Assembly (NCBI GenBank): GCA_002696035.1
Contig: NZQV01000016.1
Span: forward strand, 1 to 64,000
Direction of reading: 5' to 3'
DNA from: Balneola sp.
GTDB lineage: Bacteria; Bacteroidota; Rhodothermia; Balneolales; Balneolaceae
Length of the DNA: 64,000 bases
Below are positions 26,757-60,561 of this stretch, one piece after another. Under the pieces are notes generated by a model, which was not told the origin of the DNA, made no database searches, and saw only the letters and a list, made by a program, of their open reading frames with translations. Position numbers and translations under genes: made by a program. The stretch's first letter is position 1, and each line of letters starts with the position of its first letter.

Positions 26757-27117
26757 AATTGGATTGGTTTAATTGCCTCTAATAAATCTCGAAAGCTCAA
26801 AATAGGGAGTTTTTGCCGGATTGGTGGATTAATTTGTAACTACTTACGACCCTCCCCGCAAGTAACAGCAAGCTGTTCTTGCTGTCCCTCCAAAGGGACA
26901 CAGGTTCTAAATTTTAGCAGTATTGTTGAACTAAAACTAGAATTGTTTACGGTGGCACGAACCTATCTCTCTTTGGAGAGAGACCGATTTCAGCTTTGCT
27001 GGAAATCAGAGAGAGGACAGTGCTGTAACTGACAAAATTTTTAATTCCACCTATTCTCATTTTGAATCCACATACACTTGATTATCTTTTTGGGGCTTGG
27101 AGATTAAGTAGCAAATC
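26757..27117. other. Intergenic region carrying dispersed-repeat copy A
   Basis: This 361-bp divergent region contains no supported gene. About half of it (26844-27025) is the first copy of the structured dispersed repeat. The remaining AT-rich flanks must hold the two promoters. Confidence 0.7.
26844..27025 (+). repeat. Structured dispersed repeat, copy A
   Basis: Order of parts: CCCTCCCCGC..., hairpin TGTCCCTCCAAAGGGACA (26883-26900), AGGTTCT, a ~50-base variable core, GAACCTAT, hairpin TCTCTCTTTGGAGAGA, then GACCGATTTCAGCTTTGCTG and GAGAGAGGACAGTG. AGGTTC and GAACCT can pair and close the core. Copies B and C at 49.8 and 50.9 kb have the same order on the minus strand. The core length differs from the other copies so any reading frame is not kept, which favours a DNA or RNA element over a protein. 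Confidence 0.85.
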
Positions 27118-28617
27118 ATGTTCTGGAATAAAAAGAATTCGAAACATAGACTGGTGGTAGTTGGAGATAGTCTTTCCCAGGGCTTCAACAATGGAGGGGT
27201 ATATCGTACGGATATGAACTTTCCAGCTATGCTTCACCGGTGTTTTGATCCCAAACCCGATTTCGATCAGCCACTTTTTACTGCTCAGGCCGGAATCCCT
27301 CTAAATATTGAAGTCTTGGTTCGGGGGCTTTCCGAAGAATTTGGTGATGGTATTGAATGGAATGAAGTATTGCCGGCAGCCACACACATGGTTAAAACGC
27401 TGAAGCGTATCAAAAAATACTGGGAAGGCGGTTTTAAAGACCTTTCTGTTGATCGATCTGCCCCTTATCACAACCAATCGGTCTGGGGCTTTAATATCAG
27501 CGATTCATGGAAAGTGAATGAGGAAAACAGCAGAGAGTATATCAACAATAACCGGGAACAGTTTACGGTATTCAATATGCTTCCCGAACATGCTAAATTC
27601 ACAACAGCCCGGCTCGTCCTCAACCCATCACTACAAAAAGAATATCAGACTCGTACCCAATTCGATAACGCAAAAACTTTGGCTGACGATGGGGGAATTG
27701 AAAACCTGATCGTTTGTCTGGGGCACAATAACATGATCGCCACGGTAACCGATCTGAAGCTGATATGGACGGAAGAAGATGACCTGGAAGTTTTCCCCGG
27801 ACAACGAAAACACACCGTTTACCGACCGGAGCATTTTGAGCAGCAATACCGTAAAATGGCTGAAAAGGTAAAGAAACTTGGAGCTGAAAGGGTTTTTGTA
27901 CCGACACTGCCCTATGTAACCATTCCCCCCGTGATGCGAGGTGTGAATTCAGACCTTTCAAGTAAGCGTCTTGGGTATTTCGATTATTACACGCGTTTCT
28001 GGATCTGGGATGAGGATTTTCATCCCGACAAACATCCCCATCTTACCAAAGATGAAGCCATTCAGCTGGATCTGACTATGGACGAGTATAATGCCATCAT
28101 CAAAAAAGTAGCCGATGAAAATGGCTGGCACGTGGTTCCTATTGCAAAAAACGTAGCCGGAATGGCACGGCGCAGATTAGGCGGCGAGTTGGTTCGGGAT
28201 TTTCCTAAAGGGCTCGCCGACGCGCTCAAATCTCATGAAAGCACATCACACTTAGTTGATGAACAGGGCGATGTAAACCTATCTACCGATTTCATCCGAC
28301 TGAATGACGAAGGTAAACTCTACAAGGGAGGTATTTTCAGTTTAGATGGCCTTCACCCTACAACTATTGGCTATGGTTTGATGGCCAACGTATATCTGAA
28401 AACAATGGCCCGGGCTGGAGTAAATTTTCAGCATTCTATAAACTGGGAAGAAGTGGTTCGGGAAGATACGCTCATCAGCAACCCACCTAAATTACTGGCA
28501 GAACTCCGGGTAGTACTGCGCTTCCTTGCCATGAATCATCAGGAAAAAATGTTCAACATCAGCAAAAATGTATTGAGCCAGGTGCTGGAATTGGTCTCCC
28601 CTCGTCATCAGCAATAG
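27118..28617 (+). CDS. Large cytoplasmic-type SGNH hydrolase
   Basis: A 499-residue protein without a signal peptide. SGNH blocks are spread widely: VVVGDSLSQGF at residue ~13 (Ser), LIVCLGHNNMI near 200 (block III-like Asn), and DGLHPTTIGYG near 413 (Asp/His). The ~200-residue insertions between blocks are far larger than in TesA-type enzymes. No specific substrate is known to me for this arrangement. It is transcribed divergently from the CMD gene and is probably a single-gene unit. Confidence 0.82.
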   Translation: MFWNKKNSKHRLVVVGDSLSQGFNNGGVYRTDMNFPAMLHRCFDPKPDFDQPLFTAQAGIPLNIEVLVRGLSEEFGDGIEWNEVLPAATHMVKTLKRIKKYWEGGFKDLSVDRSAPYHNQSVWGFNISDSWKVNEENSREYINNNREQFTVFNMLPEHAKFTTARLVLNPSLQKEYQTRTQFDNAKTLADDGGIENLIVCLGHNNMIATVTDLKLIWTEEDDLEVFPGQRKHTVYRPEHFEQQYRKMAEKVKKLGAERVFVPTLPYVTIPPVMRGVNSDLSSKRLGYFDYYTRFWIWDEDFHPDKHPHLTKDEAIQLDLTMDEYNAIIKKVADENGWHVVPIAKNVAGMARRRLGGELVRDFPKGLADALKSHESTSHLVDEQGDVNLSTDFIRLNDEGKLYKGGIFSLDGLHPTTIGYGLMANVYLKTMARAGVNFQHSINWEEVVREDTLISNPPKLLAELRVVLRFLAMNHQEKMFNISKNVLSQVLELVSPRHQQ

Positions 28618-48680: not shown

Positions 48681-50075
48681 TCAATACGAATATTTAAGCC
48701 GAAAGAAGAATAGATTCGAAGTATCAGTCAGGTCAGAGAAAACCGATCCTTTTAGCAGTTGTGCAAGTAGTAAGAAGTCGATGTTTTCGGTTACGGACCT
48801 TGTGAATTGAGGGATGAAAATGACCATTTCACGGTCAAAGCTGCCCATCACACCTCCGTTGATACTGGTAAGCGGATTCAATTGAAAGGCCGCATTCACA
48901 AAGTACCCCGTTTCCGCAATGAATAGATCTGAGGCGCTGGGTGGCCTTGTTAATTGTCCGAGGGGATTTGCAGACCGATTCCATCCACCATTATACAGCA
49001 CTTCTGCAGAAGCATACACGGCATTTGGGAACATGTAATCACTTCCGAGGGCCGCAGTGAAATGTCCGGTTTCATCGAAGAAATTATCTTTGGGATGAAA
49101 GTATGTGAGTTCTCCTTTAAACCCTGCCGTTTTTAAATACCCGCTCCATCCGGCTCCCAGAGCCAACTGTTCCAAATAATTACCGACTATGAGCTGGATA
49201 TCATATTCTCCGATATTTCCTCTGTACATCCCGGCAATCACCGACTCATCCAGAGATCCCCCAATGCGGTACCCGGCTTCCACGCTGGAGGCATAGCTCC
49301 ACGAATAGGAAGCATATAGCGCATCGGTGCCCGGGCGTTCCTCATAGTCAAAATCCAGGTAGGCATATGCGTTGAACAGATCATTCGGATTCCACACCAT
49401 CGTCTTTCCCCAGTTGATCCGCTGCCTTCCTGCATGTACTTCCCAAGGCCCGTTGAAGTAGGAAAGATGCAGGCGGTCGATGGCCGAGTTCAATACGGTA
49501 TAATCCGTATCGATCCAGGTATGACTCAGGTCAAAATAGCCTGGATCGTTTTCAAGGAAATCCCCATAATTCGGAGTGTTGTTAACCGTCCAGCCGTTGA
49601 ATAGACGTGTTCGTACATCTCCCCGAAACTCAAAATGAGATCCAATATGAATTTCTGATTCTAAACGCTGATGTAAGATGTTGTCATATCGTATGGTTTT
49701 CAGGTCGTTGCTCAGGCTCACACTCCCCAACTCTTTTACATATCCGCCCAGATCTGCCTCGATGTTTTGGGATTGGATGGATGTTGGGAGGAGTAAAATC
49801 AGGATCAGAAAAAGTAAACCAAATCTAACACTTTCCTCTCTCTGATTTCCAGCAAAGCTGAAATCGGTCTCTCTCCAAAGAGAGATAGGTTCTGGCTCGT
49901 GCTTACAATCTAGTCCTAAGAAATAACGGTCTTTATCTGCCAGAACCTGTGTCCCTTTGGAGGGACAGAAAGAACGGCTCGCCGTTTCATTAGGGGAGGA
50001 GCGTAAGCTTTGATTACCAGCTTCGATATTCCCCGAATTCTCGGGGCAGGCTAATATTCCTTGTTCAATGTTCAT
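48681..50075 (-). CDS. Outer-membrane beta-barrel with repeat-derived N-terminus
   Basis: From about residue 83 the protein is normal: signal peptide (FGLLFLILILLLPTSIQSQ), then ~360 residues of alternating strands resembling DUF1302-like barrels (HVGRQRINWGKTMVWNPNDLF-type segment near 190), ending in FFFRLKYSY. The first ~82 residues come entirely from dispersed-repeat copy B. No ATG, GTG or TTG exists in frame between the repeat and the signal peptide; where ATG AGA TTT would be expected the sequence is GTT AGA TTT. Either an internal signal peptide is used or the gene is crippled. Last gene of the Lol-like set. Confidence 0.8.
   Translation of the reverse strand: MNIEQGILACPENSGNIEAGNQSLRSSPNETASRSFCPSKGTQVLADKDRYFLGLDCKHEPEPISLWRETDFSFAGNQREESVRFGLLFLILILLLPTSIQSQNIEADLGGYVKELGSVSLSNDLKTIRYDNILHQRLESEIHIGSHFEFRGDVRTRLFNGWTVNNTPNYGDFLENDPGYFDLSHTWIDTDYTVLNSAIDRLHLSYFNGPWEVHAGRQRINWGKTMVWNPNDLFNAYAYLDFDYEERPGTDALYASYSWSYASSVEAGYRIGGSLDESVIAGMYRGNIGEYDIQLIVGNYLEQLALGAGWSGYLKTAGFKGELTYFHPKDNFFDETGHFTAALGSDYMFPNAVYASAEVLYNGGWNRSANPLGQLTRPPSASDLFIAETGYFVNAAFQLNPLTSINGGVMGSFDREMVIFIPQFTRSVTENIDFLLLAQLLKGSVFSDLTDTSNLFFFRLKYSY
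49824..50060 (-). repeat. Structured dispersed repeat, copy B
   Basis: Same layout as copy A, on the minus strand: CTCCCC..GGCGAGCCGTTCTT, hairpin GTCCCTCCAAAGGGAC, AGGTTCT, 48-base core, AGAACCTATCTCTCTTTGGAGAGAGAC, GATTTCAGC, ending in GTGTTAGA. The outer end is the palindrome CCCCGAATTCTCGGGG (50031-50046). It is fused to the start of the barrel gene. Confidence 0.88.
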
Positions 50076-55274: not shown

Positions 55275-56159
55275 CTACAAAGTTCCTTTCGAACTTGGAA
55301 TTTGGTCTATTATGCGCCCGTTCTGTTCAATTGCCATCTTTAAAGACCGGGCGAGACCCTTAAAGCAGGCTTCTATTTTATGGTGATCATTCTCACCTGA
55401 AAAGCTAACATGCAAAGTCGCCTTCAAGTTCATTGCCAGGCTATAAAAAAAGTGCTTGGCCATTTCGGCAGGAAAGTCCCCAACATATTCTCTTCTGAAA
55501 TTTCCTTCAAAAACTAAATAAGGCCTTCCAGATAGATCAATAGCCACCGTAGCTTGCGTTTCGTCCATGGGCAAAACAAAGCCATAACGTTCAATTCCCT
55601 TCTTATTTCCGAGTGCTTTGGTGATAACTTCCCCCAACGCAATAGCCACATCTTCTATCGTGTGATGCTCATCCACCTCCAAATCACCCTCACAATTCAG
55701 CTTCAGGTCTATCAATCCATGCCGCGCAATTTGATCCAGCATATGGTCGAAGAATTTCAATCCGGTCGAAATCTCAGCTTTTCCCGTTCCATCCAAATTA
55801 ACTTCTATGCTGATATCCGTCTCATTGGTCTTTCGCTCGACAGAGGCTTTGCGGGCCTCCTGAGTTACAAATTTCACCAATGGCTCCCACTCATCAGAAG
55901 CGATCAGCTCTTCTCCTGCTTTGGTTAAAGCCAACTTTCCCTCCACCTCATCGATCACCAAGTCCGGTTCTCCTTCCTCCAGAAAAGCAATTCCTTCCTG
56001 CTCCAGCACGTTTTTTTGTTGGGGTGAAATTGAATCAGATGAAATTTGAAGATCCCGGCCTCCTTTGACTATCTGTTGTAAAGCAAATATTGTTTTTGCC
56101 CTAAACAAGAATTCATCGGACGTATCATTAATTGCTTTTTTAGTGATGGAAATCAACAT
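55275..56159 (-). CDS. hisB: Imidazoleglycerol-phosphate dehydratase with vestigial N-terminal domain
   Basis: I start at ATG 56159 (MLISITKKAIND); the longer frame reads through a palindrome. Residues ~105-294 are a complete HisB dehydratase with both metal motifs (DHMLDQIARHG, DEHHTIEDVA, HFFYSLAMN, NDHHKIEACFK). The first ~100 residues sit where bifunctional HisB carries a HAD histidinol-phosphatase, and the junction VERKTNETDI is like that of bifunctional enzymes, but the DxDGT motif is absent. The phosphatase is thus probably lost. Confidence 0.93.
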   Translation of the reverse strand: MLISITKKAINDTSDEFLFRAKTIFALQQIVKGGRDLQISSDSISPQQKNVLEQEGIAFLEEGEPDLVIDEVEGKLALTKAGEELIASDEWEPLVKFVTQEARKASVERKTNETDISIEVNLDGTGKAEISTGLKFFDHMLDQIARHGLIDLKLNCEGDLEVDEHHTIEDVAIALGEVITKALGNKKGIERYGFVLPMDETQATVAIDLSGRPYLVFEGNFRREYVGDFPAEMAKHFFYSLAMNLKATLHVSFSGENDHHKIEACFKGLARSLKMAIEQNGRIIDQIPSSKGTL

Positions 56160-56174
56160 AATTAAGCCTCGTAG

Positions 56175-56193
56175 GGCGGACAGCCTGTCCGCC
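56175..56193. repeat. Short perfect palindrome between hisC and hisB
   Basis: GGCGGACAGCCTGTCCGCC, two 9-bp arms around one base, preceded by GTAG. It lies 15 bases upstream of the hisB start. Another mini-palindrome of this genome rather than a terminator, since no T run follows. Confidence 0.8.
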
Positions 56194-56332
56194 ATTTTAA
56201 GTTATAGCTTATATTCTTTAATAAAACTATCGAATGGAACGCGGATGACATGGATACAGCAGATATTCGCTGATTTGTTTTAAATTCTTTTCGAATCTGT
56301 AATTCACCGCTTTCCCTACCATATTTTTATTT

Positions 56333-57388
56333 TCACTTTGTGATATTCTCCAGCGCTGTAAAAAAACGGTCGTTTTCAGTTGATGTTCCGACCGTTAATC
56401 GCAGGCAGTTCTCGCAATGTTGCTCATTTCCACGGTAGCGAACAATCACGCCTTGCTCTGCCAATTTGTGGTACACTGCCTCTGCATCAGCGATACGAAA
56501 CATCACAAAATTGGCATCAGTTGGGAATACCTTTTCAACCTGTGAATACGAAACCAATTTTGTGATCACGCGTTCCCGTTCTTCCATTATAGATTCAATA
56601 TTTTTCTTAACGTGATTAAGGTTCGCAAATCCCTCCAGCGCCTTTTGAGACGTCAGTTTGTTCACGTTATAGGGTGCTTTTACCTTCATCATATATGAGA
56701 TCACCTCAGGACTTGCCAGCGCTATCCCTAACCGAATTCCAGCCAGCCCAAATGACTTTGAAAGCGTCTGAAGCACCACCAGGTTGGGAAACTCGCCGAT
56801 GTTATTAGAAAGACTTCCCTGCCGGCTGAAATCAATATACGCCTCGTCTACCACTACCATGCCGTCAAATCCTTCCAGCACGGTTGCGATATCGGTTACG
56901 CTCATACTGTTGGCCGTGGGATTATTGGGCGAGCAAATAAAGATCATCTTTGTTTCGGGTTGAACCGCTGCAAGGATCTTTTCGGGTTGAAGTTGAAAAC
57001 TCTCGGTGAGCAGGACTTCATCCACTGCCACATCATTTATGTTGGCCGATACTTTGTACATCCCATAGGTAGGCGGGTTGATGATCACACGATCCTTGCC
57101 CGGCCGACAAAAGATGCGAAACAGCAGATCTATAGCCTCATCACTGCCCACGCCTACAAAAACATTCTCCCGGTTCACCCCGCGAAAAGCCGCAACCTGA
57201 TCCCGCAATTGCTCCTGATACGGCATCGGGTAGCGATTCAGTTCAAGATCGTCTGCAAAAGGAGCACCAAAACTATTTTCGTTGGCATCCAGCAAAATAC
57301 CGGAATCAAAATCATCCCGTGCACTGCGATAAGGTTTCAGGTTTTGAATATTTTCCCTTACCAGGGAGCTGATGTCTGTTTTTTTCAT
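56333..57388 (-). CDS. hisC: Histidinol-phosphate aminotransferase
   Basis: A 351-residue fold-type I PLP enzyme making histidinol phosphate. Visible: LDANENSFGAP, GVGSDEAIDLLFR, CSPNNPTAN, VVVDEAYIDFS, the PLP-lysine motif QTLSKSFGLAGIRLG near residue 213, and C-terminal RLTVGTSTEN. Normal length. It lies between hisD and hisB; the hisD-hisC gap contains a repeat copy. Confidence 0.96.
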   Translation of the reverse strand: MKKTDISSLVRENIQNLKPYRSARDDFDSGILLDANENSFGAPFADDLELNRYPMPYQEQLRDQVAAFRGVNRENVFVGVGSDEAIDLLFRIFCRPGKDRVIINPPTYGMYKVSANINDVAVDEVLLTESFQLQPEKILAAVQPETKMIFICSPNNPTANSMSVTDIATVLEGFDGMVVVDEAYIDFSRQGSLSNNIGEFPNLVVLQTLSKSFGLAGIRLGIALASPEVISYMMKVKAPYNVNKLTSQKALEGFANLNHVKKNIESIMEERERVITKLVSYSQVEKVFPTDANFVMFRIADAEAVYHKLAEQGVIVRYRGNEQHCENCLRLTVGTSTENDRFFTALENITK

Positions 57389-57419: not shown

Positions 57420-57536
57420 GTTTGAGGCAGAGCCTCGCGTTAGTATTCCGCAGCAGAGCTACGAAAAGAGCTTAAAGTCATCGGACGAAATTACCATTTC
57501 AAAATTCAATGTTGAATGTTCAATGTTCAATATTCT
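57420..57536 (-). repeat. his intergenic repeat, copy 1
   Basis: GTTTGAGGCAGAGCCTC...TATTCCGCAGCAGAGC...GAGCTTAAA...TTCAA(T)GTT units ending in TTCAATATTCT. It resembles copy 2 ahead of hisD in the same order of parts. The hisD stop codon lies inside it, so the last residues of HisD (KNIEH) derive from the repeat. A GAGGC-AGA-GCCTC hairpin is included. Confidence 0.75.
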
Positions 57537-58809
57537 TCAGCCGCAGGCTGACCGCGTTTTTATGCGCCTGAAGTTCTTCTAAATCCGCCAACTTTTCCAC
57601 TGCGGGACCGATATTCTTTAAGCCTTCTTCACTAAGCGATTGCATGGTCATCGATTTCTGGAAAGCAGCTAAATTCACTCCACTGTACATTCGCGCATAG
57701 CCATAGGTTGGCAGCGTGTGATTGGTGCCGGAAGCATAATCTCCTACACTTTCAGGCGTCAAAGCTCCTAAAAATACCGAACCTGCATTTGTGATCTTTT
57801 CAGTAAAAGATTCGGCATCCTTCACATTCACAATTAGATGTTCTGGCGCATATTGATTGGAAAAATCAAAAGCTGCATCCAGCGAATCAACGATGAGAGA
57901 GTAACTGTTCTCCAATGCTCCTGCTGCGATCTGCTTCCTGGGAAGTTTATCCAATTGCGATTCCAGCTCAGCATTCAACCCTTCCATATCAAAACCTGGA
58001 GTTGCGACCAACACCACCTGACTATCTTTGCCATGCTCTGCTTGTGATAACAGATCTGCTGCAACAAAGGTTGGATTGGCTAAAGCATCGGCGATAACCA
58101 GCACTTCAGAAGGTCCGGCCGGCATATCAATGGCGATCTGGGCTTCCGAATTCTGAAGGATCATTTTTGCCGCCGTTACATATTGATTCCCCGGACCAAA
58201 TATCTTGTCTACTTTTGAAACTGATTCCGTTCCGAAAGCCATGGCCGCTACCGCCTGAGCTCCTCCGGCCAGCAAGACCTGATCTACTTCGGCTTTTTGT
58301 GCGATATATATAATTTCAGGAGCTACCGTTCCGTCTTTGCGGGGAGGCGTGGCCATCACTTTGGTTGTACAACCTGCGATCATAGCGGGGATGGCCAGCA
58401 TCATAGCAGTAGAAGGAAGAATAGCCGTTCCGCCGGGCACATATAAACCCACTCTTTCGATCGGTCGCGCTACTTTCATGCACCGAACACCGGGCATTGT
58501 CTCCACTTCAAGCGGTTTCGGAAATTGAGCCTGATGAAACCTGGAAATATTTTTAAAGGCAACATCAATGGCTTCCTTAACTTCCTCTTCCAGCGTAACT
58601 TCAACCTCATTTGGGTTGATGATCACCGAGTCTAAATTCACCCCGTCAAATTCCCGGGTATACTTTTTGATCGCTTCATCACCATACTTCTCAACCGCAT
58701 CTAAAATGGGTTGAACCGTTTGGAAGATGGAAGTAAAATCAATTTTAGGCCGCTTCAGCAGCTTCGTAATTTCTTCCGGTGATAATTCTGCGTTCTTGTA
58801 CGTTTTCAT
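57520..58809 (-). CDS. hisD: Histidinol dehydrogenase
   Basis: A 429-residue Zn enzyme that oxidises histidinol to histidine in two NAD-dependent steps. Signatures: [48 protein letters not shown], the catalytic region YAPEHLIV and [15 protein letters not shown]. Length fits. It is second in the operon. The extreme C-terminus is repeat-derived, with no expected effect on the active site. Confidence 0.97.
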
Positions 58810-58822
58810 TTCATTGCCTTAT

Positions 58823-58920
58823 GGTTTGAGACAGAGCCTCTATCAAGCATTCCACAGCAGAGCAGCGGAACGAGCCTTAAAATTCAAAGTTGGATGTTCC
58901 TTGTTCAATGTTCAGTGTTC
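58823..58920 (-). repeat. his intergenic repeat, copy 2
   Basis: GTTTGAGACAGAGCCTC...CATTCCACAGCAGAGCAGCGGAACGAGCCTTAAAATTCAAAG...TTGTTCAATGTTCAGTGTTCT fills the hisG-hisD gap and parallels copy 1 in the hisD-hisC gap. Confidence 0.75.
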
Positions 58921-59801
58921 TACAGGATCATACTTTCGATCGGCAGCATCACAATATCTGAAGCCCCGGCTTCTTTGAGTTCCTCCATTACGATCCAGAA
59001 TTTTTCCAGAGGAATTACAGTATGAACCGCGACCATATCTTTTTCTGCTAAAGGCATAACGGTCGGACTTTTCATGGATGGAATGATGCTTTTGATCTCT
59101 TCAATAGCTGATTCAGGAGCATTCATCATAATATATCGGCTATTGGCTGCCTGCTGATAACCGTCCATTCTCACCAAAAACTTCTCGATAAGCTGCTGCT
59201 TTCCGGGCGAGAGCTCCTGATTGGTTCGGATCAATTGTGTTTGAGATTCCAGAATGGTATCAAGCTCCACTAAACCATTTGCCTTCAGTGTTCCACCGGA
59301 GGATACCAGATCTACAATAGCGTCTGCAACTTCAAGCTGAGGCGCAATTTCCACCGCTCCGGAGATCTCTATAACCTGAATATCAATTCCACGCTCCTCA
59401 AAAAACTTTCGGGTCAAATTCGGATAGCTGGTAGCTACCTTCTTTCCGTCAAAATCTTTTGGCCCATTGATGTCTCCATTTTTTGGTGCTGCAAGTGAAA
59501 GTCGGCATTTGCCATATCCAAGATCGCGAATTGGGGTTACATCGGCACCGGTTTCTTGTGTTTCATTGGCTCCTACAAAGCCAAGATCACAGACGCCATC
59601 TTGTACATATTCAGGAATATCGTCATCCCGAAGCAATAATAGCTCCACATCAAAATTCCGTGTCTTTACAATCAGGTTACGTTTATAGTTGTCGAATTCG
59701 ATGCCAATACCTTCTAATAAAGCAATGGTTTTGTCGGTTAAACGACCACTTTTTTGAATGGCGATACGCAGTGAAGTTGAAGAATCCTTCGTTCGGTTCA
59801 T
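58920..59801 (-). CDS. hisG: ATP phosphoribosyltransferase, long form
   Basis: First enzyme of histidine synthesis, 293 residues, so the long HisG-L form with a C-terminal ACT-like regulatory domain (~220-293, ..VHTVIPLEKFWIVMEELKEAG) that usually gives feedback inhibition by histidine. N-terminal signatures: IAIQKSGRLTDKT, VCDLGFVGANE, ATSYPNLTRKFF, and the PRPP loop ADAIVDLVSSGGTLKANGL. First structural gene, 70 bp after the leader peptide. Confidence 0.97.
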   Translation of the reverse strand: MNRTKDSSTSLRIAIQKSGRLTDKTIALLEGIGIEFDNYKRNLIVKTRNFDVELLLLRDDDIPEYVQDGVCDLGFVGANETQETGADVTPIRDLGYGKCRLSLAAPKNGDINGPKDFDGKKVATSYPNLTRKFFEERGIDIQVIEISGAVEIAPQLEVADAIVDLVSSGGTLKANGLVELDTILESQTQLIRTNQELSPGKQQLIEKFLVRMDGYQQAANSRYIMMNAPESAIEEIKSIIPSMKSPTVMPLAEKDMVAVHTVIPLEKFWIVMEELKEAGASDIVMLPIESMIL

Positions 59802-59871
59802 AGTTTTGATAAATAATAAGTTGGGTTAAAAAGTAAGAATAATCGAGGTAGAAAAAGAGTTGAAATGATGC

Positions 59872-59955
59872 TTAATGCACGTGATGATGTCCGTGATGGG
59901 CATGATGGACATCATGATGAAAACAGTGACTGGTATGTAGCTGATTTTTTTTCAC
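59872..59955 (-). CDS. hisL: Histidine-rich his-operon leader peptide
   Basis: Starting at GTG 59955, a 27-residue peptide contains 12 His, mostly in doublets and one triplet (FHHDVHHAHHGHHHVH-stop), and ends 70 bases before hisG. This is the classic composition of an attenuation leader whose translation speed reports charged His-tRNA. GATGTCC/GGACATC within the codon run can form a hairpin. I see no standard terminator with T run between leader and hisG, so control may be translational or by an atypical terminator. GTG as start is the least certain point; a TTG lies two codons upstream. Confidence 0.85.
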   Translation of the reverse strand: MKKNQLHTSHCFHHDVHHAHHGHHHVH

Positions 59956-60108
59956 GATCAAAAATAGGCATTGTTTTAAGTTAGCACAACCGATTAACAG
60001 TTTTTTAACGTAGTCTGATAACCCTGAAAAAAGTGAGTGCGTTTCCAGGATGTAAACTTTACAGGCTTCGGGATTGTTTGATGGAGTAAATCCAACAAAA
60101 AAAGCCCC

Positions 60109-60561
60109 ATGAAGATCCCTTTCATAACTTTACTCTTATCATCTTTACTTCTAAGTATTATGCCCTTACAAGCGCAGGATTTTAACCTTGACGATCACAA
60201 ATGGAAAGATCGGGTATTACTGGTCTTTTCACCCAATACCTACAATCCGGATTTCAGGGATCAAGCTAAACAACTGAAGAATGCCCGTAAAGGCATAAAT
60301 GAAAGAGACCTTAAGGTTTTTTATGTGCTGCAGGAATCGAGTGCATCTGTAAAAGGCGATGTGCTGGAAGGAGATGAAACGAGTGATCTGCTAACTGAAT
60401 TTGATGTTTCTTCAGGAGATTTTGTTGTGATCTTAGTTGGAAAAGACGGAACAAAAAAACTTCAAACTGAGGAAAGCATTTCTTCTGACCGATTGTTTGA
60501 AGTGATAGACGACATGCCCATGCGTAAACTGGAGATGAAAGAAGATGGAAAAGGGAATTAA
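60109..60561 (+). CDS. DUF4174 thioredoxin-like secreted protein
   Basis: 150 residues, signal peptide ending LQAQ, then a DUF4174-type domain: HKWKDRVLLVFSPN, RDLKVFYVLQESS and GDFVVILVGKDGTKK. The family has a thioredoxin-like fold without the CxxC pair; none is present here. Function unknown. It is divergent from the his operon across a 307-bp region, most of which is the his leader. Confidence 0.87.
   Translation: MKIPFITLLLSSLLLSIMPLQAQDFNLDDHKWKDRVLLVFSPNTYNPDFRDQAKQLKNARKGINERDLKVFYVLQESSASVKGDVLEGDETSDLLTEFDVSSGDFVVILVGKDGTKKLQTEESISSDRLFEVIDDMPMRKLEMKEDGKGN

Follow-up and report, generated by a model that had tools for sequence, protein, structure and literature searches.

The window, a stretch of 64,000 nt from a Balneola sp. 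assembly (contig NZQV01000016.1), carries on its minus strand a histidine operon in the order hisG-D-C-B, with all genes in the same direction and hisG first. The four genes encode ATP phosphoribosyltransferase (hisG, 58920..59801 (-); TIGR00070, 205 bits, and TIGR03455), histidinol dehydrogenase (hisD, 57520..58809 (-); TIGR00069, 509 bits), histidinol-phosphate transaminase (hisC, 56333..57388 (-); TIGR01141, 371 bits) and imidazoleglycerol-phosphate dehydratase (hisB, 55275..56195 (-); NF002111, 278 bits). Upstream of hisG, whose ATG lies at 59801, we located a short ORF of the sequence GTG-KKNQLHTSHCFHHDVHHAHHGHHHVH-TAA on the minus strand (59955..59872). It comprises 27 codons, 12 of them for His, and ends 70 nt before hisG, as a preliminary description of the window had reported for a His-rich 27-residue peptide; the arrangement of His residues near the peptide end quoted there (FHHDVHHAHHGHHHVH) matches exactly. 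The same description had guessed at Balneolaeota, and the nearest relative of the assembly is indeed Gracilimonas, a genus of the Balneolaceae. The leader peptide has no relevant match in Pfam, NCBIfam or Rfam, and the Rfam family His_leader (RF00514) gave no match at the gathering score, nor at E-values up to 10. The divergent neighbour of the his leader (60109-60561 (+)) encodes a protein of the DUF4174 family (PF13778, 106 bits) whose start resembles a signal peptide.

We compared hisG and its upstream region in Balneolaceae, other Balneolales and more distant groups, which gave 124 distinct upstream regions; candidate leaders with a start codon were found in 97 of them, 74 of these in Balneolaceae. 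Automatic recognition of the leader is imperfect for some loci, among them L017, where it was identified by eye, and L086 and g4, where the start is uncertain. Throughout the Balneolaceae, a His-rich leader precedes hisG in 74 distinct loci, with similar placement (the ORFs end 56-127 nt before hisG) and the same promoter position, which excludes a chance occurrence of the ORF. Several other Balneolales families also carry His-rich ORFs before hisG. Missing conservation in relatives had been named as the observation that would speak against a regulatory leader, and the opposite was found. Non-His positions and length drift freely between genera, with the core DVHHAHHGHHH mostly retained in Gracilimonas and near neighbours. 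No His-rich leader ORF was found before hisG in one family, f3 (L031, L033, L037, L040, L041, L044, L046), in which a sigma-A-like promoter lies directly before hisG in place of the leader. A conserved short ORF that is rich in codons for the product of the biosynthesis operon behind it is what characterizes an amino-acid leader-peptide attenuator. The ORF is a real regulatory leader, of a kind already known and in a variant that is new, and its His-rich peptide very probably senses the His supply and controls the his operon.

The promoter of the leader can be recognized by a -7 element, TATTTTTG (59959..59966 (-)), which follows the Bacteroidota sigma-A consensus TAnnTTTG; this consensus and its distance to the transcription start were taken from PMC6847099. 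A candidate -33 element, TTG (59987..59989 (-)), lies 20 nt before the -7 box, and TTG or TTGG recurs thereabouts in many relatives. A TAnnTT box precedes the start codon in 73 of the 74 Balneolaceae leaders (extended to TAnnTTTG in 28). Of these leaders, 48 begin with GTG and 25 with ATG. Box and start codon are separated by 4 nt in 35 leaders and by 5 nt in another 29, i.e. 64 of 74 altogether, and by 3 nt in the window species. When a fixed gap of 3-6 nt was demanded, the test succeeded for 86% at the start codon and for 1-11% at other offsets. In Flavobacterium johnsoniae the -7 box spans positions -12 to -5, and promoters with a distance of 4-5 nt between box and transcription start were counted as probable promoters (PMC6847099). 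Since the gap in Balneolaceae matches this spacing, position +1 or +2 is predicted for the start codon of the leader. Thus the leader ORF should be leaderless, with a transcript that starts at or near its start codon; for the window species, promoter spacing predicts the 5' end at the GTG or within 1-2 nt of it. A promoter mapped downstream of the leader would have spoken against the preliminary description; instead, in nearly all Balneolaceae the leader start directly follows a conserved sigma-A-type -7 box, and f3 is the only family where we noticed such a promoter nearer to hisG. Leaderless mRNAs are a small minority in the Bacteroidota studied so far: 5' UTRs under 10 nt were reported for 3.7% of the mRNAs of Bacteroides thetaiotaomicron (PMC7366714), and 5.5% of the mRNAs of Flavobacterium psychrophilum are leaderless (PMC9723704). 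A genome-wide pattern search for further leaderless short ORFs gave 83 matches at a gap of 4 nt compared to 53 for the reversed pattern, with no clear further leader among the 60 loci inspected; the trp and ilvD leaders described below were located through their genes.

Two hairpins, P1 and P2, are predicted in the leader transcript. The pairing of GATGTCC with GGACATC within the His codons, pointed out in the preliminary description, was found in the minimum-energy fold, where it extends to 9 bp and constitutes P1 (5' arm ATGATGTCC, 59907..59915 (-), within the His codons; 3' arm GGACATCAT, 59884..59892 (-)). P2 encloses the stop codon: its 5' arm GTGC (59877..59880 (-)) lies directly ahead of the final base pair of the ORF and its stop codon, and its 3' arm GCAT (59868..59871 (-)) leaves the stop codon within a loop of 5 nt. 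The fold stability of the 231-nt region as a whole is not unusual (z = -0.9). The pairing in the hairpins is supported by a swap test among the relatives, the statistics of which ignore relatedness. In Rhodohalobacter-like genera, the P1 arms beat swapped partners with a permutation p = 5e-5, and an outer P2 helix, P2a (GGGCA/TGCCC), does so with p = 1e-3; P2a variants are ACGGA/TCCGT in L028 and TGGATA/TATCCA in L103. For the inner helix P2b, whose 5' arm adjoins the stop codon and which is GTGC/GCAC in most relatives, the test (p = 5e-5) excluded loci of different architecture (the Fodinibius-like g6, g4 and a few others). Compensatory pair types are present for P2b, namely ATGCGC/GCGCAT in L005 (a GCGC/GCGC type), ACGC(A)/(T)GCGT in L060-L063 and, in other families, in L036 and L050-L052, and GCTGCG/CGTAGC in L087. 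At the place of P2, g4 has a 12-bp helix (GGGGATTTGTGC/GCGCAAATCCCC). In the window species, P2b is degenerate and weak (GTGC/GCAT). The non-His residues that the leaders share coincide with the helix arms, DV and G with P1 and the final VH with P2. In L012, L013, L014, L015 and L016 (g5, g10, g13) we additionally observed a long-range helix of 8-11 bp between the start-codon region of the leader and the spacer, with a sequence that differs per genus (e.g. GTGAATTC/GAATTCAC); as a general feature, such a helix was rejected (mean z of 0.2 in the swap test).

No terminator-like site was found in the window between the leader and hisG, in line with the earlier remark that a clear terminator with a T run is missing. 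To all regions we applied a uniform terminator scan. Among the 74 Balneolaceae his leaders it returned no credible intrinsic terminator: 3 gave a match, all low-scoring (9.7-14.0), and the highest falls inside the ORF. A hairpin with a T run was detected in 6 of 14 other Balneolales his leaders and in 8 of 9 outgroup his leaders, the latter with scores of 18-27. Out of 27 trpE upstream regions of the same lineage, 24 contain a strong terminator, and the three misses (L278, L279, L286) are the loci where the automatic search found no Trp leader; 9 ilvD upstream regions were also positive, including all those of Gracilimonas. As the scan detects terminators in the trp and ilvD regions, their absence in the his leaders is not a failure of detection. 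Thus the GC-rich hairpin and T run that define the classic intrinsic attenuator are missing between leader and hisG.

Sister leaders of the same lineage differ in this respect. In the genome of the window species, a Trp leader, MKNEFAQNNNWWWPVIEHNSGTAT, lies upstream of trpE (L272; G000:C14, trpE at ~546101). Its ATG follows the -7 box at a distance of 7 nt, and a strong intrinsic terminator (AAACCCACTGTTC..GAATGGTGGGTTT) separates it from trpE; similar Trp leaders occur in most Balneolales examined. A branched-chain leader, MLSVIIISLVIIPIIGISYQPGKAL, precedes ilvD (L276; G000:C10, ilvD at 277475) and is likewise followed by a strong intrinsic terminator (AAAGCCTTCC..GGAAGGCTTT), with similar arrangements in other Gracilimonas. 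These leaders resemble the his leader in their cognate codons (WWW in the case of Trp), and those before trpE also in being near-leaderless, the gap to the box, where one was found, being 4-8 nt for the trp leaders. Near-leaderless leader peptides thus look general in this lineage. In contrast to the his leader, the trp and ilvD leaders have strong canonical terminators. The earlier suggestion that attenuation of the his operon may use another mechanism gains weight from this contrast within the same genome.

The 70-nt spacer between leader and hisG (59802..59871 (-)) is a candidate Rho-loading region. It consists of 3% G, 24% C and 46% T (70% pyrimidine) and is predicted to be mostly unpaired. 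Compared with 192 upstream regions of its own genome (from genes whose upstream sequence is free over 70 nt, within 431 kb; mean G content 17%), it has the highest pyrimidine content and the highest excess of C over G. Across the Balneolaceae the G content of the spacer is 1-13%, whereas it is 12-21% in seven outgroup leaders with terminators. Together with the predicted leaderless arrangement and the stop-codon hairpin P2, the G-poor spacer is one of three features absent from the preliminary description. The predicted unpaired fraction at the hisG start is 0.63, compared to 0.49 in 187 control genes, and 0.72 in the window. A helix that hides the start of the first gene, as expected for a translational attenuator, was not found, the hisG start being more accessible than in controls. 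The open spacer and the accessible hisG start argue against sequestration of the start site and fit a Rho-loading region. Rho itself is encoded in the same genome (591 bits, C14:344954), so that two elements expected of a Rho-dependent attenuator are present, namely the factor and, behind the leader, a stretch of unstructured RNA that is rich in C and poor in G. A second Rho-like protein (L189, G000:C3:130885-131985) scores 409.6 bits to TIGR00767, below the family cut-off.

We propose that the his operon is controlled by ribosome-mediated attenuation with a factor-dependent effector, probably Rho, a model that on the sequence evidence we consider about as probable as its alternatives combined. 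Where transcription starts, which way the switch turns and that Rho is the effector are inferences within this model. Transcription would start at the leader GTG or within a base or two of it, as the promoter spacing implies, and the ribosome would load on the 5' end and traverse the 12 His codons, its position reporting charged tRNA-His. With sufficient His, the ribosome would reach the stop codon, melt P2 and be released; the spacer would then be wholly single-stranded, and Rho or another factor would terminate transcription ahead of hisG or shortly after its start. Under His shortage, the ribosome would stall within the His codons, P1 would be blocked, P2 would form and sequester the beginning of the spacer, and hisG-D-C-B would be transcribed. 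Fold predictions are consistent with these states. When the footprint of a ribosome on the His codons was masked, most of P1 disappeared and P2 persisted; with the footprint at the stop codon, P2 disappeared, P1 persisted and the spacer reached its most open state (0.85 unpaired). Without a ribosome, P1 and P2 both form, the states being separated by ribosome position alone; the switch would therefore need a terminating ribosome or timing. A spacer shielded by P2 under starvation would be the simplest reading that has the right sign for a biosynthetic operon. Against the model as a whole stands the weak P2 of the window species (GTGC/GCAT), and against Rho as effector the spacer length in Balneolaceae (56-127 nt), which is short for Rho loading alone; the low G content might rather serve to prevent folding of the spacer or to bind the S1 protein. 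In its most specific form, a lineage-wide leaderless His-leader attenuator with Rho as effector, in which the terminating ribosome opens the stop-codon hairpin over a rut-like spacer, we put the model forward only tentatively and as falling short of an even chance.

The main rival to Rho is RNase-controlled decay of the kind known from Salmonella orf34-speF. The same leaderless His sensor could act on a post-transcriptional effector, with the ribosome position selecting between a protected fold (P2) and exposure of the U/C-rich spacer to an RNase, or setting the efficiency of hisG translation. In orf34-speF, uninterrupted translation leads to decay by RNase G, pausing at tandem Arg codons to an alternative structure, and the position of the stop codon matters (PMC6386406); the predicted single-stranded spacer would suit such RNase exposure. 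However, the accessible hisG start renders classic start-site sequestration improbable, and we regard this explanation as unlikely overall, though worth serious consideration. We give appreciably less credit to an intrinsic attenuator in disguise, in which the short stem of P2 and a T run behind it would terminate transcription. In some leaders T5-T6 does come right after P2 (e.g. GTGCA-TTAAT-TGCAC-C-TTTTTT in L007), but P2 stems are mostly 4-6 bp, the few scan matches in his leaders score low compared to the strong terminators of nearly all trp leaders, and P2 would be prevented from forming by a ribosome on the stop codon, which for a biosynthetic operon is a response of the wrong sign. Nor are T runs concentrated behind P2: a first shuffle had suggested such a concentration (27 of 52 versus a mean of 8), and it was dropped because, counted by position, the T runs are spread over the spacer. 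That the leader is a relic, with an unseen promoter or regulator mainly driving the operon, finds a precedent in family f3; it is nonetheless very improbable, as the Balneolaceae have kept the leader, the promoter spacing and both hairpins, with compensatory changes. Finally, a functional His-rich metal-binding micropeptide that lies before hisG incidentally would account for the high His content, but is the least credible explanation of all given the freely drifting length and non-His sequence between genera, the coincidence of the shared residues with the P1 and P2 arms, the absence of a Pfam or NCBIfam match and the parallel Trp and branched-chain leaders before trpE and ilvD.

The proposed ribosome-mediated, factor-dependent attenuator shares features with several known systems. 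Like the enterobacterial his attenuator (hisL, RF00514), it combines a His-codon-rich ORF before hisG with hairpins and an expected response to charged tRNA-His. It differs from hisL by the lack of an intrinsic terminator and of an Rfam match, by a stop codon in a conserved hairpin loop, by an ORF that its promoter spacing implies to be leaderless and by a pyrimidine-rich, G-poor spacer. His codons in a short ORF before hisG are also found in Ignavibacteria/Melioribacteraceae and some Bacteroidetes (L137, L139, L141, L143, L144, L146, L147), where, unlike in Balneolaceae, a strong intrinsic terminator lies right before hisG and the G content is normal. Polycysteine leaderless short ORFs of mycobacteria have reportedly been described, to go by the title of a 2020 study by Canestrari. 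Mycobacterial cys leaders likewise have an amino-acid-rich leader ORF, are predicted to lack a conserved terminator hairpin and contain poly-pyrimidine tracts proposed as Rho-binding sites (PMC1262725). They belong to Actinobacteria and to Cys operons, are not known to have a stop-codon hairpin, and their polyY motifs are not conserved (PMC1262725), whereas the G-poor spacer of Balneolaceae is. In Salmonella orf34-speF, too, the position of the ribosome on a short ORF with tandem cognate codons selects the structure and Rho is involved; the leader, however, is long and structured, its ORF is SD-led, and full translation prevents Rho action, a sign opposite to that of our model (PMC6386406).

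In the open literature, his attenuators are described for Proteobacteria and some Firmicutes (PMC9413887; PMC2965389). Strong clues of leader-peptide attenuation before amino-acid operons were reported for F. psychrophilum (PMC9723704), and leader peptides in Bacteroidota-type bacteria are therefore not new. The arrangement presented here was not found described in the open-access literature searched, a scope outside of which most subscription papers lie. Attenuator searches keyed on intrinsic terminators would overlook the Balneolaceae his class; indeed, one such search misses Rho-dependent cases by its own statement (PMC2965389). If the model is true, an amino-acid-starvation attenuator without an intrinsic terminator would exist beside terminator-bearing trp and ilv attenuators in the same genome, so that the termination module of one operon would differ from the standard module that serves its sister attenuators within the same cell. 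Furthermore, bacteria with Bacteroidota-type promoters, in which leaderless mRNAs are a small minority, would set regulatory leader peptides at the extreme 5' end of their transcripts. Named Gracilimonas strains exist, which makes the model directly testable. Apart from the his leader, the window contains the Rfam whalefall-1 RNA (RF01762) twice, at 26963-27018 (+) and 49833-49888 (-), with 56 and 53 bits; the former match ends ~100 nt before an ORF at 27118 that shows a weak GDSL-like lipase match.
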